Assembly (NCBI RefSeq): GCF_010730355.1
Contig: NZ_AP022576.1
Coordinates: 992,001 to 1,056,000, forward strand
From: Mycobacterium florentinum
Lineage (GTDB): Bacteria > Actinomycetota > Actinomycetes > Mycobacteriales > Mycobacteriaceae
Direction: 5' to 3'
Length of the DNA stretch: 64,000 nucleotides
Of this stretch, positions 16,029-60,011 are shown one piece after another. The position numbers and the translations under genes are program-made. The notes beneath the pieces were generated by a model that saw only the letters and a program-made list of their open reading frames with translations, was not told where the DNA came from and did no database searches. Numbering within the stretch: the stretch's first letter is position 1; each line of letters opens with the position of its first letter.

Positions 16029-16105
16029 GCCCTCGTATCCCAACTGGCAGAGGAAACGGATTCAAAACCCGTCCAGTGTGAGTTCGAATCTCACCGAGGG
16101 CACCA
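16029..16105 (+). tRNA. tRNA-Leu (CAA)
   Basis: A cloverleaf can be drawn by hand. The acceptor stem is GCCCTCG/CGAGGGC, and the 3' end is A followed by encoded CCA. The D arm has a 3-bp stem (TCC/GGA), and the anticodon loop TTCAAAA gives CAA. The T arm is GTGAG-TTCGAAT-CTCAC. The anticodon stem ACGGA/CCCGT has one A.C mismatch next to the loop. The variable region is only about 5 nt, whereas bacterial tRNA-Leu normally carries a long arm. The A discriminator and 3-bp D stem do suit leucine. Length is 77 nt including CCA. Confidence 0.85.
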
Positions 16106-54110: not shown

Positions 54111-54770
54111 GACGGAGGCCTCCGGCTCCATCGGCAGCGCGTGCGAAGCCTGATCGGTGGGCCCCGAGCTGCCCAGGTCGTCGTGGGCGCTTCCGGCCGC
54201 CAGCAGGGCATAGACCAGCGCGGCGATCGCGGCGGGCCACAACAGCGTGATGGCGATCTGCAGCGGCCCGGGACCGAAGAACACCGGCGGCGCCTGCACG
54301 ACGTAGGACACCGCGGGGCTGCCCAGCACCGGCACCTTGTCGACGTCCAGCGCGCCATAGCGCAGCAGAGCCAGCACCGCGCCCACCGCCGAGGCCACCC
54401 CGGCGGCGCCCACCATGCCGATCGTCAGCCCGATGACCATGCCCGGGCCGCGCAGCCGGCGCCACTGCCACACGAGCACCGGCGCGACGACCGCCAGCAC
54501 GGTCAACAGACCCAGCATCAGGGACGGCACGTCGAAGAAGTGCTGGGACTCGGTACCCAGGTATTCGTGCACCCGCTCGCCGGAGCGCGTCATCGCCACC
54601 ACCAGATGAATCGGCGGGGCCATCCACGCCCATAGGCCGCCGACCAACACTCCGGTCGCCGAAAGCCCAAGTGCGGCAAGGCCAATCGCACGCATCCGCG
54701 ATGGGGTGGCGCGACCGGCGGGCTCAGGCGCCGCGGGCTGGGGAGCCGCCGGCATCCAGGGTTCGGTCAC
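54105..54770 (-). CDS. DUF2567 membrane protein (Rv1591-like)
   Basis: A 221-residue protein with four hydrophobic helices ([80 protein letters not shown]) and a Pro-rich N-terminus. A conserved-looking external loop is [20 protein letters not shown]. The function is unknown. Its start overlaps the bsaP stop as ATGA, placing it last in bioB-bsaP-DUF2567. Confidence 0.85.
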
Positions 54771-55012
54771 CGCTGAGTCTCCAGATCCGCCGAGTCAACC
54801 TCGCCGTGCCGCGAGCAGCGCGCCCGCCAGCCGTCGGGGCGGACCTGGACGATCATCCGGCGCCCGCATTCGGCGCAAAAGCGCGGCGGTTCAAGACCGA
54901 GCTGGGCCGCGGTGGGCACTGTCGTACCCCCCAATTCCCCGGTGTAGACGTTGTAGATGCCGGCGCTGACCGGAGCACCCAGATCTCCAACCACAGATTC
55001 CAACCTAGCCAC
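54767..55012 (-). CDS. bsaP: Biotin synthase auxiliary protein
   Basis: An 81-residue protein matching Rv1590 in place and form. The N-terminal part has [18 protein letters not shown], and a C-terminal small zinc-ribbon-like region has CAECGRRM and CSRHGEV. Recent work, as I recall it, showed that mycobacterial BioB needs this protein (BsaP) to turn dethiobiotin into biotin, probably by supporting the iron-sulfur cluster. GTG 55012 shares its first base with the bioB stop (TAGTG), so production is tightly coupled. Confidence 0.85.
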
Positions 55013-56049: not shown

Positions 56050-56122
56050 CAAGTACTCCCCTGCATCTTTATCGCGTCCGCGTCTGCGGTCACATCCGCC
56101 ACAACCTCGTGGCAGCCTGAAC

Positions 56123-56135
56123 GAAACGGTGTTCA
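56123..56135 (-). promoter_or_regulatory. Candidate BioQ operator upstream of bioB
   Basis: On the minus strand TGAACACCGTTTC matches, except for one base, the 13-bp TGAAC-N3-GTTAC motif I recall for the actinobacterial biotin repressor BioQ. A -10-like TACCCT lies just upstream of it on the minus strand. No bioQ gene is in the window. Confidence 0.45.
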
Positions 56136-56186
56136 AAGTAGGGTAACGGCCCTAGTACACCGAAACCGCCGGGGTATACGACCACC

Positions 56187-56366
56187 ATGACGACCGTGCA
56201 TGTCGAGTACGTGGCACACCACTGGATTGTGCTGGCGGTACCGGCGTTCCTACCGGCCGTGATCGTCGTCGCCGTGATCCTCTACGTCGCGCTGCGCGAC
56301 CGGCGCGCCGGCCGGACCGATGATGCCCAGCAGCAAAGCGACACAACGGATAAATCACATGATTGA
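56187..56366 (+). CDS. 59-residue single-TM protein
   Basis: A small gene opening the 56.2-60.0 kb operon. MTTVHVEYVAHHWIVLAVPA leads into one strong membrane helix (VPAFLPAVIVVAVILYVAL), then a basic stop (RDRRAGR) and a polar acidic tail ending in KSHD. His residues 5, 11 and 12 precede the helix. A TATACG hexamer ends 6 nt before the ATG, so a leaderless message is likely. It is 96 bp upstream of the large membrane protein on the same strand. No family is recognised. Confidence 0.6.
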   Translation: MTTVHVEYVAHHWIVLAVPAFLPAVIVVAVILYVALRDRRAGRTDDAQQQSDTTDKSHD

Positions 56367-56468
56367 CAGCCCCACAATCCGGGCATTACACCTTGGATCG
56401 CGTGAACTTACCTGCCAGTAGGAAATGATCTCCCGGGACGTCCCGGCGCTTGTAGGGAGGACATGACA

Positions 56469-58301
56469 ATGGTGTCAACGGAGCTACCGCTGCTCGCCGA
56501 ACCGTCGGCCCGCGGTGCCGGACTCAACCAGGTGATCGGGCTCTCGGTCGCCGCGATGGTCATCACGCTGGTCATGTTGGGGGTGGGCTACGCGCACCGC
56601 ACTCATCGCATCACGTGGTTGACCCGGCTCGCCGACAAACTCGGCGAGAAATTCCATCGCCCCAACTGGGTGGCGCTGCCGATCCTGGTCTTCACGACGT
56701 CGATCATCTGCGCCCTGTTCGGCTTCATCTGGGACGTCAGCTGGCATATCGGCAACGGCCGCGATCCCGGGCCGTTGGCCAACCCGGCGCACTACTTCAT
56801 CATCATCGGCCTGTTCGGGGTGTTCCTGGCCGGAATGACCGCGATCGTCATCCCGCACGAGAAGCCCGGGCCGGCGGCGGTGCGCATCACCCGCAGCTGG
56901 TACGCGCCGGTCGGCGGCGTGCTGATGGCCGGCTGCGGGCTGTACGCGATGATCGGCTTCCCACTCGACGACATCTGGCACCGAATCTTCGGGCAAGACG
57001 TCACGCTTTGGGGCCCAACACATTTGATGATGATCGGCGGTGCCTGCTTTTCGCTGTTCGCGGTGCTGATGCTGGAGCGCGAAGGCGAGGCCCAGCAGGC
57101 GGCCGAGGCCGCGCACGGCGCGTTCATCACCTTCCTGCGCTACCTGTCCTTCGGCGGAATGTTCATCGGCCTGTCGGTCTATCAGATCGAATACGACTTC
57201 GGCGTCGAACAATTCCGCCTGGTGTTGCAGCCGATGATGATCGCCTTCGCCTCCGCACTGGCGGCCGTCGCCGCCCGCGTCACGATGGGCCGCGGCGCGG
57301 CGATCATCGCATCGTTGTTCGCGATCTTGCTGCGCGGTGGCGTCGCGGTGCTGGTGGGTCCCATCCTGGGCGCGCCGATCAACTGGTTCCCGCTGTACCT
57401 GGGCCCCGCCCTGGTGGTCGAACTGATTGCGCTGACTCCATTGTTCAAGCGCCCCATCGCTTTTGGCGCGGTCTCCGGCCTGGGCGTCGCGACGGTCGGG
57501 CTGTGGCTGGAGTCGCTGTGGATCGGGACGGTCTACCACTACCCCTGGCCGGTCAGCATGTGGGGCGAGGCCCTGGCCATGGCGGTACCGGTCGGGGTGC
57601 TCGCCGGAATGTGCGGGGCATTGTTCGGCATGGTGCTGACCGGGCAGCGGTTGCCGCACCGCAGGATCGGCATCTCGGTGGTCGTGGCGACCGTCGTGGT
57701 GATCGGCGGCGCGGTGGCCAACGGCCTGCACATCGTGGTGCCGCAACAAGGCAAGGCCGCGATCACGCTGACCGAGCTGCCCAGCGCACCCGGCCAGCGC
57801 ATGGTGTCCGCCGATGTGCAGCTGACACCCGCCGATGCGGTTGGCGCGCAGCCGGATTGGCTGACGATTCTGTCCTGGCAGGGCCGGATGGAAAACCACC
57901 GCGGCCTGGTGATCGACCGTCTGGACAAGGTTGGCCCCGGCCACTACCGGTCCACCCAGCCGGTCCCGGTCTGGGGATCGTGGAAGACGCTGCTGCGGAT
58001 TCAGGACGGCTACACGATGACCGGCGTGCCGATCTACGAACCGGCCGACGACGCCATTCCCGCGGCCGAGGTGCCCGCCCTGTCCCCGATGGACCGGCCG
58101 TTCGTGCACGAGATCACCATCCTGCAGCGCGAACGTGACCAGAACGCTCCCGGCTGGCTCTACAACGCCGGTTCGCTCGTCGTGCTGATCCTGACGCTGA
58201 TGGTCATCGCCGGCCTGGCGTGGGGCGCGGGCCGCATCAACAATGCGCTGTCCGAGCCCGAGCCGGTTACCGAAAAACAACCACTGCCGCGGGCAGCGTG
58301 A
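56469..58301 (+). CDS. Large polytopic membrane protein with C-terminal FixH/YtkA-like domain
   Basis: About 610 residues; ATG 56469 is preferred because GGAGG stands 8 nt before it, while ATG 56463 is only 2 nt from it. Some eleven or twelve membrane helices fill residues 20-425. His residues cluster around them: WDVSWH, PAHYF, VIPHE, DDIWHRIF and GPTHLMM. An extracytoplasmic beta-type domain (about 428-565) contains VGPGHYRSTQPVPVWGSWKT, reminiscent of FixH/YtkA/CopC-like folds, and one last helix follows. The pattern suggests a heme- or copper-handling membrane protein, by inference only. The family is not one I can name. A cupredoxin-like lipoprotein gene follows 4 bp downstream. Confidence 0.72.
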   Translation: MVSTELPLLAEPSARGAGLNQVIGLSVAAMVITLVMLGVGYAHRTHRITWLTRLADKLGEKFHRPNWVALPILVFTTSIICALFGFIWDVSWHIGNGRDPGPLANPAHYFIIIGLFGVFLAGMTAIVIPHEKPGPAAVRITRSWYAPVGGVLMAGCGLYAMIGFPLDDIWHRIFGQDVTLWGPTHLMMIGGACFSLFAVLMLEREGEAQQAAEAAHGAFITFLRYLSFGGMFIGLSVYQIEYDFGVEQFRLVLQPMMIAFASALAAVAARVTMGRGAAIIASLFAILLRGGVAVLVGPILGAPINWFPLYLGPALVVELIALTPLFKRPIAFGAVSGLGVATVGLWLESLWIGTVYHYPWPVSMWGEALAMAVPVGVLAGMCGALFGMVLTGQRLPHRRIGISVVVATVVVIGGAVANGLHIVVPQQGKAAITLTELPSAPGQRMVSADVQLTPADAVGAQPDWLTILSWQGRMENHRGLVIDRLDKVGPGHYRSTQPVPVWGSWKTLLRIQDGYTMTGVPIYEPADDAIPAAEVPALSPMDRPFVHEITILQRERDQNAPGWLYNAGSLVVLILTLMVIAGLAWGAGRINNALSEPEPVTEKQPLPRAA

Positions 58302-58305
58302 GGGG

Positions 58306-58668
58306 ATGACGTTACGCGGCACGCTTATCGCGGCGTGGGTGACGGTGCTGACGTGCGGCTTGATCGGCTGCGCGGGTTCGCCGCACCAGGCTCCCCCGGA
58401 GCCGCTCAACATCGAGGTCACCATCGCCCACGGTCGCGTCACCCCGACGAACGCGATGCTGCAGGCGAAGGTCAAGCAGCAGATCGTCCTGCATGTCACC
58501 AGCGATGCGACCGATGAGCTGCATGTGCACTCGGTGCCCGATCACAAGTTCGAGGTCAAGGCCGGACCCAACCAGATCTTTCAGTTCAGCGTCGAGGTGC
58601 CCGGCAACGTCGACGTGGAGCTCCACCATCTGGACCGCACGATAGCCACCATCTCCGTCGTGCCGTGA
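58306..58668 (+). CDS. Cupredoxin-like lipoprotein
   Basis: A 120-residue protein with a lipoprotein signal (MTLRGTLIAAWVTVLTCGLI, then GCAGSP). The mature domain of about 95 residues has the beta pattern of cupredoxin_1 proteins: VKQQIVLHVTSDATDELHVH, SVPDHKFEVKAGPNQIFQFS and NVDVELHHLDRTIATISVV. Histidines occur as HVH and HH, but the canonical Cys and Met copper ligands are missing. It could be a copper chaperone or only a structural subunit. Its stop overlaps the next gene's GTG (GTGA). Confidence 0.72.
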   Translation: MTLRGTLIAAWVTVLTCGLIGCAGSPHQAPPEPLNIEVTIAHGRVTPTNAMLQAKVKQQIVLHVTSDATDELHVHSVPDHKFEVKAGPNQIFQFSVEVPGNVDVELHHLDRTIATISVVP

Positions 58669-60011
58669 CGGCGCTGCTGGCGCACGGCCTGGGCGGGTCG
58701 AGCGATCTTCCGGTGCCCTACGCGTTTGCGATGGTCGGTGCCGCGTGGGCATTGACGTTCACATTCGCGTTGGTCGCCTTCGCCTGGCGCAGACCGCGAT
58801 TCGATCCGGATGCGCCCGGCCACCCGCTGCCGGAGTGGGTGACGACGCTGGTCGACGCCCGCGCCACGCGCTGGACGGCCGCCGGGGCGGCCCTGGCATT
58901 GGCGACGTGGGCGGTGCTGGCCGGGCTCTTCGGTCCGCAGACGCAAGCCAACGGCCTGCTCGGGGCGTTCTACGTGCTGCTGTGGGTCGGGCTGGTCGCG
59001 GTGTCGCTGGCGTTTGGGCCGGTGTGGCGGGTGATCTCGCCGATGCGCACGGTGTACCTGCTGTCGCGGCGCGCGCTGCCGCTGAGCGGGCCGCGGCTGC
59101 GCTACCCGGAAAGCTGGGGCTACCGCCCGGCCGCGGTGGGACTGTTCGCGTTCGTGTGGCTGGAGCTGGCCAGCCCGAACTCGGCATCGCTGCCCTGGGT
59201 GCGAGGCTGGCTGCTGGCCTACGCGGCGGTGTTGCTGGCCGGGGCGTGGCTGTGCGGGCAGCGCTGGCTGGCCAGGGCGGACCCGTTCGGCGTGTACAGC
59301 ATGGCGGTGTCGCGGCTGTCCCCGTTTTGGCGCTCGACGGCGACCGGGCGGATCGTGATCGGCAACCCGTTCGACCATCTGCCGTCGCTGCCGGTGCGGC
59401 CCGGGGTGGTCGCGATGCTGGCGGTGTTGCTCGGGTCGACGGCGTTCGACAGCTACTCGTCGTCGCCGACCTGGCGCGATTTCGCCGACCGGCTGTCCCG
59501 CCTGGGGCAGGATGTGCCGCCGACGGTGATGTCGTCGGTGCTGCGAACCGTCGGGCTGCTGGTCTTCATTTCGGTTGTCGCACTGACCTTTTCGATCGGC
59601 GCCCGGGCGACCGGCGGGGTGGACCGCGAGCAGCGGCGCGCCCTGCCCGGTCAACTGGCGCACTCGCTGATCCCGATCGTGGTGGGCTACATCTTCGCGC
59701 ACTACCTCTCCTACCTGGTGGAGCGCGGACAGCAGGCCGTGATCGCCCTCGCCGATCCGCTCGGCCGGGGCTGGAATCCGTTGGGGCCGGCGCACTTACA
59801 CGTGGACTACGTGTTGTCCCAGCATCCGCCGGTGTTGGCCGGAATCAAGGTGGCCTGCGTGGTCACCGGGCACATCGTCGCGGTGATCGCGGCGCACGAC
59901 CGCGCGCTGCGGCTGTTGCCGGCCGGCCATCAGCTCACCGGGCAGCTCACCATGATGCTGGTGATGGTCGGCTACACGTTCACCGGCTTGTACCTGCTCT
60001 TCGGCGGCTAG
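58665..60011 (+). CDS. Polytopic membrane protein, last gene of the cupredoxin operon
   Basis: A 448-residue protein with about ten to eleven helices. It begins MTALLAHGLGGSSDLPVPYA; I recall actinobacterial proteins with this HGxGxxxDLP opening being labelled fenitrothion hydrolase (FedB-like) in databases, a label of uncertain meaning. Other notable parts are GNPFDHLPSLPVRPGVVAML, SIGARATGGVDREQRRALPG and GPAHLHVDYVLSQHPPVLAG, plus a late GYIFAHYLSYLVERG. Histidines near membrane edges recall metal-linked proteins. It overlaps the lipoprotein gene by 4 bp and ends over the stop of the convergent 2H gene. Confidence 0.72.
   Translation: MTALLAHGLGGSSDLPVPYAFAMVGAAWALTFTFALVAFAWRRPRFDPDAPGHPLPEWVTTLVDARATRWTAAGAALALATWAVLAGLFGPQTQANGLLGAFYVLLWVGLVAVSLAFGPVWRVISPMRTVYLLSRRALPLSGPRLRYPESWGYRPAAVGLFAFVWLELASPNSASLPWVRGWLLAYAAVLLAGAWLCGQRWLARADPFGVYSMAVSRLSPFWRSTATGRIVIGNPFDHLPSLPVRPGVVAMLAVLLGSTAFDSYSSSPTWRDFADRLSRLGQDVPPTVMSSVLRTVGLLVFISVVALTFSIGARATGGVDREQRRALPGQLAHSLIPIVVGYIFAHYLSYLVERGQQAVIALADPLGRGWNPLGPAHLHVDYVLSQHPPVLAGIKVACVVTGHIVAVIAAHDRALRLLPAGHQLTGQLTMMLVMVGYTFTGLYLLFGG

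Follow-up and report, generated by a model that had tools for sequence, protein, structure and literature searches.

A mycobacterial four-gene unit encoding a remote AmoC/PmoC homologue, putatively a single-chain copper membrane oxygenase

The known bearers of copper membrane monooxygenases (CuMMOs) are a limited range of organisms that oxidise methane, ammonia or short alkanes, and which copper is the active one in these enzymes was for a long time a matter of dispute, as set out in the consulted parts of two papers (PMC11194816, PMC12576850). According to the latter, the CuC ligands of PmoC are Asp156, His160 and His173, with Arg165 nearby (D127, H131, H144 and R136 in the 260-residue numbering used in our alignments). 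The CuD ligands are Asn227, His231 and His245 (N198, H202 and H216), and CuD is now regarded as the active site in the passages cited from PMC11194816. Here we analyse a stretch of 64,000 nucleotides from Mycobacterium florentinum (contig NZ_AP022576.1, positions 992,001 to 1,056,000; hereafter the window), in which four same-strand genes, separated by gaps of 96 bp and 4 bp and then joined by a 4-bp overlap, encode the proteins that we call small59, big612, the lipoprotein and mem448. This arrangement is exactly as a first-pass annotation of the window had put it. By its sequence, big612 is in its first part distantly homologous to AmoC/PmoC and keeps both copper-site motifs there. We consider the chances about even that big612 is a remote single-chain relative of the particulate methane and ammonia monooxygenases (pMMO and AMO), that is, a copper membrane oxygenase provided with copper by its own partner proteins. 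The features of the unit are the following.

56171..56179, + strand: GGGGTATAC, a -10-like element directly 5' of the first start codon
56187..56366, + strand: small59, 59 aa, one predicted transmembrane segment
56463..58301, + strand: big612, 612 aa, polytopic; its first part is the remote AmoC/PmoC homologue, as judged from sequence
56733..56792, + strand: big612 motif 1, residues 91-110 (D91-x3-H95, R100, H110)
56967..57023, + strand: big612 motif 2, residues 169-187 (D169-x3-H173-x13-H187)
57117..57644, + strand: big612 residues 219-394, helices superposing on AmoA (9cl6_B)
57732..58130, + strand: big612 residues 424-556, predicted extracytoplasmic beta domain, followed by the last helix (564-596)
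58306..58668, + strand: lipoprotein, 120 aa, cupredoxin-like, lipobox Cys22
58665..60011, + strand: mem448, 448 aa, polytopic

Kinship of big612 with AmoC/PmoC

The window protein was aligned with 36 diverse relatives, taken from 36 of 40 wide loci (L142, which gave no match, and L146, L148 and L149 were left out; L146 and L148 were added for the later motif comparison). Residues D91, H95, G99, R100, H110, G116, D169, W172, H173, G177, D179, V180, W183, P185 and H187, among others, are identical in all 37 sequences, and in the structure model the conserved residues lie at the ends of helices 68-98, 108-129, 150-176 and 185-211. When helix 52-64 is treated as not crossing the membrane, the inter-helix loops of the model contain, up to helix 11, 15 Lys and Arg residues after odd helices versus 3 after even ones. 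This distribution indicates that both motif loops, as well as the beta domain following helix 12, probably face outwards.

D91, H95 and H110 together with R100 are the counterparts of the CuC ligands of PmoC and its Arg165; hence the CuC ligands and the second-sphere Arg (D, H, R, H) are present in 37 of 37 members. D169, H173 and H187 are the counterparts of the CuD ligands, with Asp for Asn. Motif 1 shares with AmoC the D-x3-H, an Arg at +5, an Asp or Glu at +6 and the P-x-H end; the distance from D-x3-H to the final His is x12, the AmoC spacing, in deep members and in a short form described below, and x14 in the window protein. Aligned to 12 AmoC sequences, the motif 1 profile landed on CuC for each of three master sequences (E 1.3e-4, 3.2e-5 and 4.1e-5), and none of 150 column shuffles reached the score in any of the three cases. 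CuC was also the best of 1284 ungapped placements (z 6.7; next 3.7). The best AmoC placement of motif 2 was CuD, which ranked second of 1284 overall, behind a placement on mem448. The distance between CuC and CuD is 71 residues in PmoC, 72 in the relative from locus L145 and 71 in the short subfamily.

Reciprocal searches were carried out in a set of 8302 sequences, made up of family members, 23 AMO proteins and open reading frames (ORFs) from the loci as well as reversed ones. A hidden Markov model (HMM) of the two-motif domain retrieved, after the family members, four actinobacterial AmoC/HmoC sequences (E 2.8e-4, 1.4e-3, 1.4e-3 and 2.5e-3), and the next match, L139_12038, is itself a fragment of a relative. 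In the opposite direction, the first five matches of the AmoC HMM were members of the big612 family (E 0.0021 to 3.2). An HMM built from relatives of the L148 protein found nine AmoC sequences first (E 1.7e-5 to 0.015), and hhalign aligned the corresponding profile with AmoC over both sites and 90 columns (E 1.2e-5, probability 81). When the L148 relatives were added to the sequences searched, 109 family entries, among which L143, L144 and L145 are counted twice, preceded the first other sequence in the AmoC HMM search (best E 9.9e-6). Three presumed decoys, L149_5974, L139_12038 and L146_5294, are actually family members, and a viral-contig AmoC (L189) was dropped, as it contains a stop. The window protein itself was absent from these databases; it is tied to them by its matches to L148 (E 1.9e-5), L144 (E 7.7e-18) and L145 (E 6.2e-14) and by the shared motifs. 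Reciprocal profile matches covering both copper sites and ranking above the decoys are what we take as evidence of homology to AmoC at the superfamily level.

Several results weigh against this kinship or against membership in the CuMMOs. AmoC profiles matched in none of 22 whole genomes at E 10, and PF04896 scored above cut-off in none of 296 genomes (nor in any of 14 controls). The direct similarity of the window protein is weak and limited to ~40 residues, a window-centred ungapped scan against AmoC gave nothing above controls, and comparison of the full family with AmoC reached only E 0.021 (probability 2.3). The CuD residue that is Asn in 12 of 12 AmoC sequences is Asp in all 37 big612 members, which have both His at the right spacing, so that N-x3-H-x13-H is absent. 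Neither the window protein nor 37 members score above cut-off for Pfam AmoC, AMO or Monooxygenase_B; a single 612-aa chain stands in place of the three genes xmoC, xmoA and xmoB; and no conserved His starts the long-form beta domain, as the N-terminal His of the CuB site does in AmoB. Because these four defining features were looked for and not found, we do not class big612 as a CuMMO.

The weak direct similarity and the empty searches would also fit convergence, in which helix hairpins with D-x3-H and a further His downstream are metal sites of a generic kind and big612 shares no ancestry with AmoC. We regard this as very improbable, because the agreement covers both sites at once, along with the 71-residue spacing, the Arg and the inter-ligand residues W, D/E and P, and because the 109 family entries outrank every other sequence in the AmoC search.

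The short form is a paralogous subfamily of ~485 aa (P0241-P0360), to which the L148 protein of Mycolicibacterium rhodesiae belongs (P0241, L148:5767-7224). A protein search with the latter yielded 432 relatives, the best 120 of which come from mycobacteria, Nocardia, Nonomuraea, Actinomadura and others. This subfamily has the exact AmoC motif spacing, and its beta domain starts with A-x-A-H-D; if the chain were cut at this point, the His would become N-terminal, as it is in AmoB. Two further relatives were observed. The one at L146:5294-6412 is probably broken or misassembled, since it is spread over two reading frames, and a contig-edge fragment at L139:12038-12801, with D-x3-H and S-P-T-H, seems to represent a third kind.

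No Pfam or NCBIfam model describes big612 (window protein and 37 members). The first-pass annotation had recognised a FixH/YtkA-like domain in it, which is plausible, but the FixH scores (PF05751) all stay below the family cut-off: 3 of 37 members match, with a best E of 0.099, and the L148 protein scores 16.8 versus a cut-off of 23 bits. Many unrelated sandwich folds match the beta domain just as well. A TRAP transporter was rejected, as DctQ matched a single member of 37 (E 1.6e-4) and below cut-off.

Partner proteins, distribution and locus context

Residues Cys22 (lipobox), H73, H75, P78, E105 and H107 of the lipoprotein are kept in 99 of 99 sequences. Its description as cupredoxin-like by the first-pass annotation is likewise plausible, with a Cupredoxin_1 score (PF13473) of 19.3 versus the 27-bit cut-off, hence below it. 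In 19 aligned mem448 sequences H7, D14, H346, H387, H403 and H411-D412 are invariant. For mem448 no Pfam family was found at E 1 or better and no NCBIfam family, so that it does not belong to CopD by this test, and a relationship to big612 was rejected (hhalign E 0.21). We also rejected the name 'Fenitrothion hydrolase' that some databases give to mem448 relatives; the literature containing these words, judged by listing, has no bearing on them. In the mem448 relatives L245-L264 a signal-peptide-like stretch, recognised by eye, precedes the invariant HG, and the mature proteins might therefore begin with His. For small59 no Pfam or NCBIfam family scored above cut-off. The GGGGTATAC element upstream of it is present, as judged by eye, in most of the 66 upstream sequences compared and possibly belongs to a leaderless transcript. 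An upstream inverted repeat, TAGGG-N6-CCCTA, was dropped, being present in 2 of these 66 sequences, both apparently the window itself.

The source genome (6,219,859 bases) contains a single copy of big612, whose closest named relatives are those of M. ahvazicum, M. genavense, M. montefiorense and M. simiae (89-93% identity). The gene was found in 177 of the 248 same-genus genomes searched (172 of 233 when near-complete ones alone are counted) and, in a phylum sample, in 45 of 396 genomes. In 150 big612 loci, which are not independent of each other, the order is that of the window in 66, small59 follows big612 in 27, no small59 match was found in 5, big612 stands alone in 50 and the order is another one in 2; small59 is placed 3' of big612 in other lineages. 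The spread of mem448 is wider (77 of 396 genomes). Both genes occur together in 23 genomes versus 8.75 expected (Fisher p 3e-7, uncorrected for relatedness), mem448 without big612 in 54 and big612 without mem448 in 22. Among 20 mem448 loci picked away from big612, none contained big612, and 12 had a lipoprotein match directly 5' of mem448. The occurrence of big612 alone in 50 of 150 loci and of the lipoprotein-mem448 pair without nearby big612 in 12 of 20 shows that the unit is modular; homologues that stand singly and without synteny, which the first-pass annotation had named as speaking against its proposal, do thus exist in part.

These distributions bear on a second explanation, namely that the unit is a non-catalytic complex for taking up or transferring copper, in which AmoC-type sites fed by the lipoprotein serve transport or hand-over and mem448 is a copper permease or an oxidase-assembly partner. 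The neighbours of some lipoprotein-mem448 pairs, which by eye resemble CopC, CtaG, SCO and cytochrome oxidase subunits, fit such a complex, as do the genomes that have mem448 without big612; so, too, does the fact that all ligands at both sites are Asp or His, the Asn of the active-site CuD being replaced. The resemblance of big612 to an oxygenase subunit, with both sites and the second-sphere Arg kept, does not, and big612 alone in a third of its loci, or in genomes devoid of mem448, would be odd for one transport complex. We consider this explanation rather unlikely, though it is the strongest alternative to an oxygenase.

The same oxidase-like neighbours, together with the FixH-like beta domain, suggest that big612 could serve a terminal oxidase, either as an accessory protein or in its assembly. 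This appears improbable: the beta domain fits unrelated sandwiches equally well, twelve helices with two AmoC-type sites would be left unexplained, and the operon of the window contains no oxidase gene.

Genes in unannotated loci were found by ORF and codon-position scoring, and neighbour lists are therefore approximate. Genes that fall into one cluster occur on the opposite strand, upstream of big612 or close to it, in 10 of 36 wide loci, and the one tested encodes a MerR regulator. At L122:2411-3181, in the neighbourhood of a big612 relative, is a gene for a PpoB2 'copper chaperone' (PF09948, E 2.4e-63); in L144 a multicopper oxidase fragment is similarly placed.

The position of the operon between bioB and bioD, noted in the first-pass annotation, proved to have no bearing on function. 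The site between a ligase gene and bioB is peculiar to some mycobacteria: of 21 further loci of the genus with the operon or with big612, 7 lie beside bioB and 14 have no bio gene in the examined stretch, and a link to biotin synthesis was rejected on this ground. All 13 genomes examined that lack big612 have bioB next to the ligase gene, at a distance of ~3 kb in two, 189 bp in one, 2.7 kb in one and ~0.5-0.75 kb in nine. The 2.7-kb spacer (L268:10206-12934) contains, between the ligase gene and bioB, a mem448 remnant (89% identity over ~104 residues) that by its sequence is a decayed operon. Loss of the operon has thus happened.

Elsewhere in the window, a palindrome (TGAAC-N8-GTTCA, 56118-56135) upstream of bioB resembles an operator of the biotin regulator BioQ. 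Adjoining bioB are a gene for the biotin synthase auxiliary protein BsaP (54767-55012; NCBIfam NF052237, E 3.1e-24) and then a DUF2567 gene. The sole tRNA gene found is tRNA-Leu (caa), at 16029-16105.

Proposed function and comparison with known systems

The first-pass annotation had suggested a membrane complex that handles copper or a different redox metal, or else an oxidase-like device. The direction of this proposal holds, and the AmoC-type motifs of big612 sharpen it. The middle part of big612 probably corresponds to AmoA, and the beta domain would take the place of AmoB, to which it may be related; with a C-like part first, an A-like part in the middle and the beta domain at the place of AmoB, the order of domains mirrors the gene order xmoC-A-B. 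As a copper membrane oxygenase, big612 would keep in its first part the geometry of CuC (D91, H95, H110, R100) and of CuD (D169, H173, H187) and bind one or two coppers at the membrane's outer edge. Using this copper, O2 and electrons supplied by the quinol pool, it would then oxidise a small or lipophilic substrate. The lipoprotein, with its HxH and ExH, would deliver copper and mem448 would handle it, comparable to PmoD, CopC and CopD with pmoCAB.

With somewhat less confidence, at a little under an even chance, we propose that the family is a second, previously unrecognised branch of the CuMMO superfamily, carried by a large share of the mycobacteria and by certain other Actinomycetota; a single polypeptide would unite the C-, A- and B-like parts, have Asp-His-His at both sites and be accompanied by a dedicated copper lipoprotein and membrane protein. 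The first-pass annotation had taken the operon to be unstudied, and no study or description of the big612 family turned up among the open-licence PMC papers, the literature searched. If the proposal is true, big612 would be a copper oxygenase with its own substrate, adding an unsuspected copper-dependent redox function to mycobacteria. Both C-subunit sites in one chain would offer a simpler protein in which to probe CuC, CuD and the role of the CuD Asn, and the short A-x-A-H subfamily could reveal how the three subunits are related.

Big612 agrees with AmoC/PmoC/HmoC (PF04896) in its two metal-site hairpins, whose order and spacing match: D-x3-H-x12-H with Arg at CuC and [D/N]-x3-H-x13-H at CuD. 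It differs in lying below every Pfam cut-off, in being fused to more helices and a beta domain, in the Asp at CuD and, in the window protein, in a motif 1 that is two residues longer. No significant sequence similarity to AmoA/PmoA (PF02461) was found. Like AmoB/PmoB (PF04744), big612 has a membrane-anchored outer beta domain after the A-like part, and the A-x-A-H-D of the short paralogues resembles the A-x-A-H-G start of AmoB, whereas similarity to AmoB is not significant (hhalign E 0.04-0.14) and the long form lacks a conserved His at the start. FixH/CcoH and Cupredoxin_1 match the beta domain and the lipoprotein weakly, under curated cut-offs. PmoD has, in the part of its description consulted, two invariant Cys, whereas the lipobox Cys is the only invariant one in the lipoprotein; mem448, unlike CopD, matches no Pfam family. 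Extended pmo/amo operons carry pmoD, copC and copD (PMC6189053, in the part consulted), and a copper module beside an oxygenase-like gene therefore has a precedent: as in the case of PmoD/AmoD, CopC and CopD, the unit described here combines such a gene with those for a polytopic protein and a small cupredoxin-like protein on the outside.

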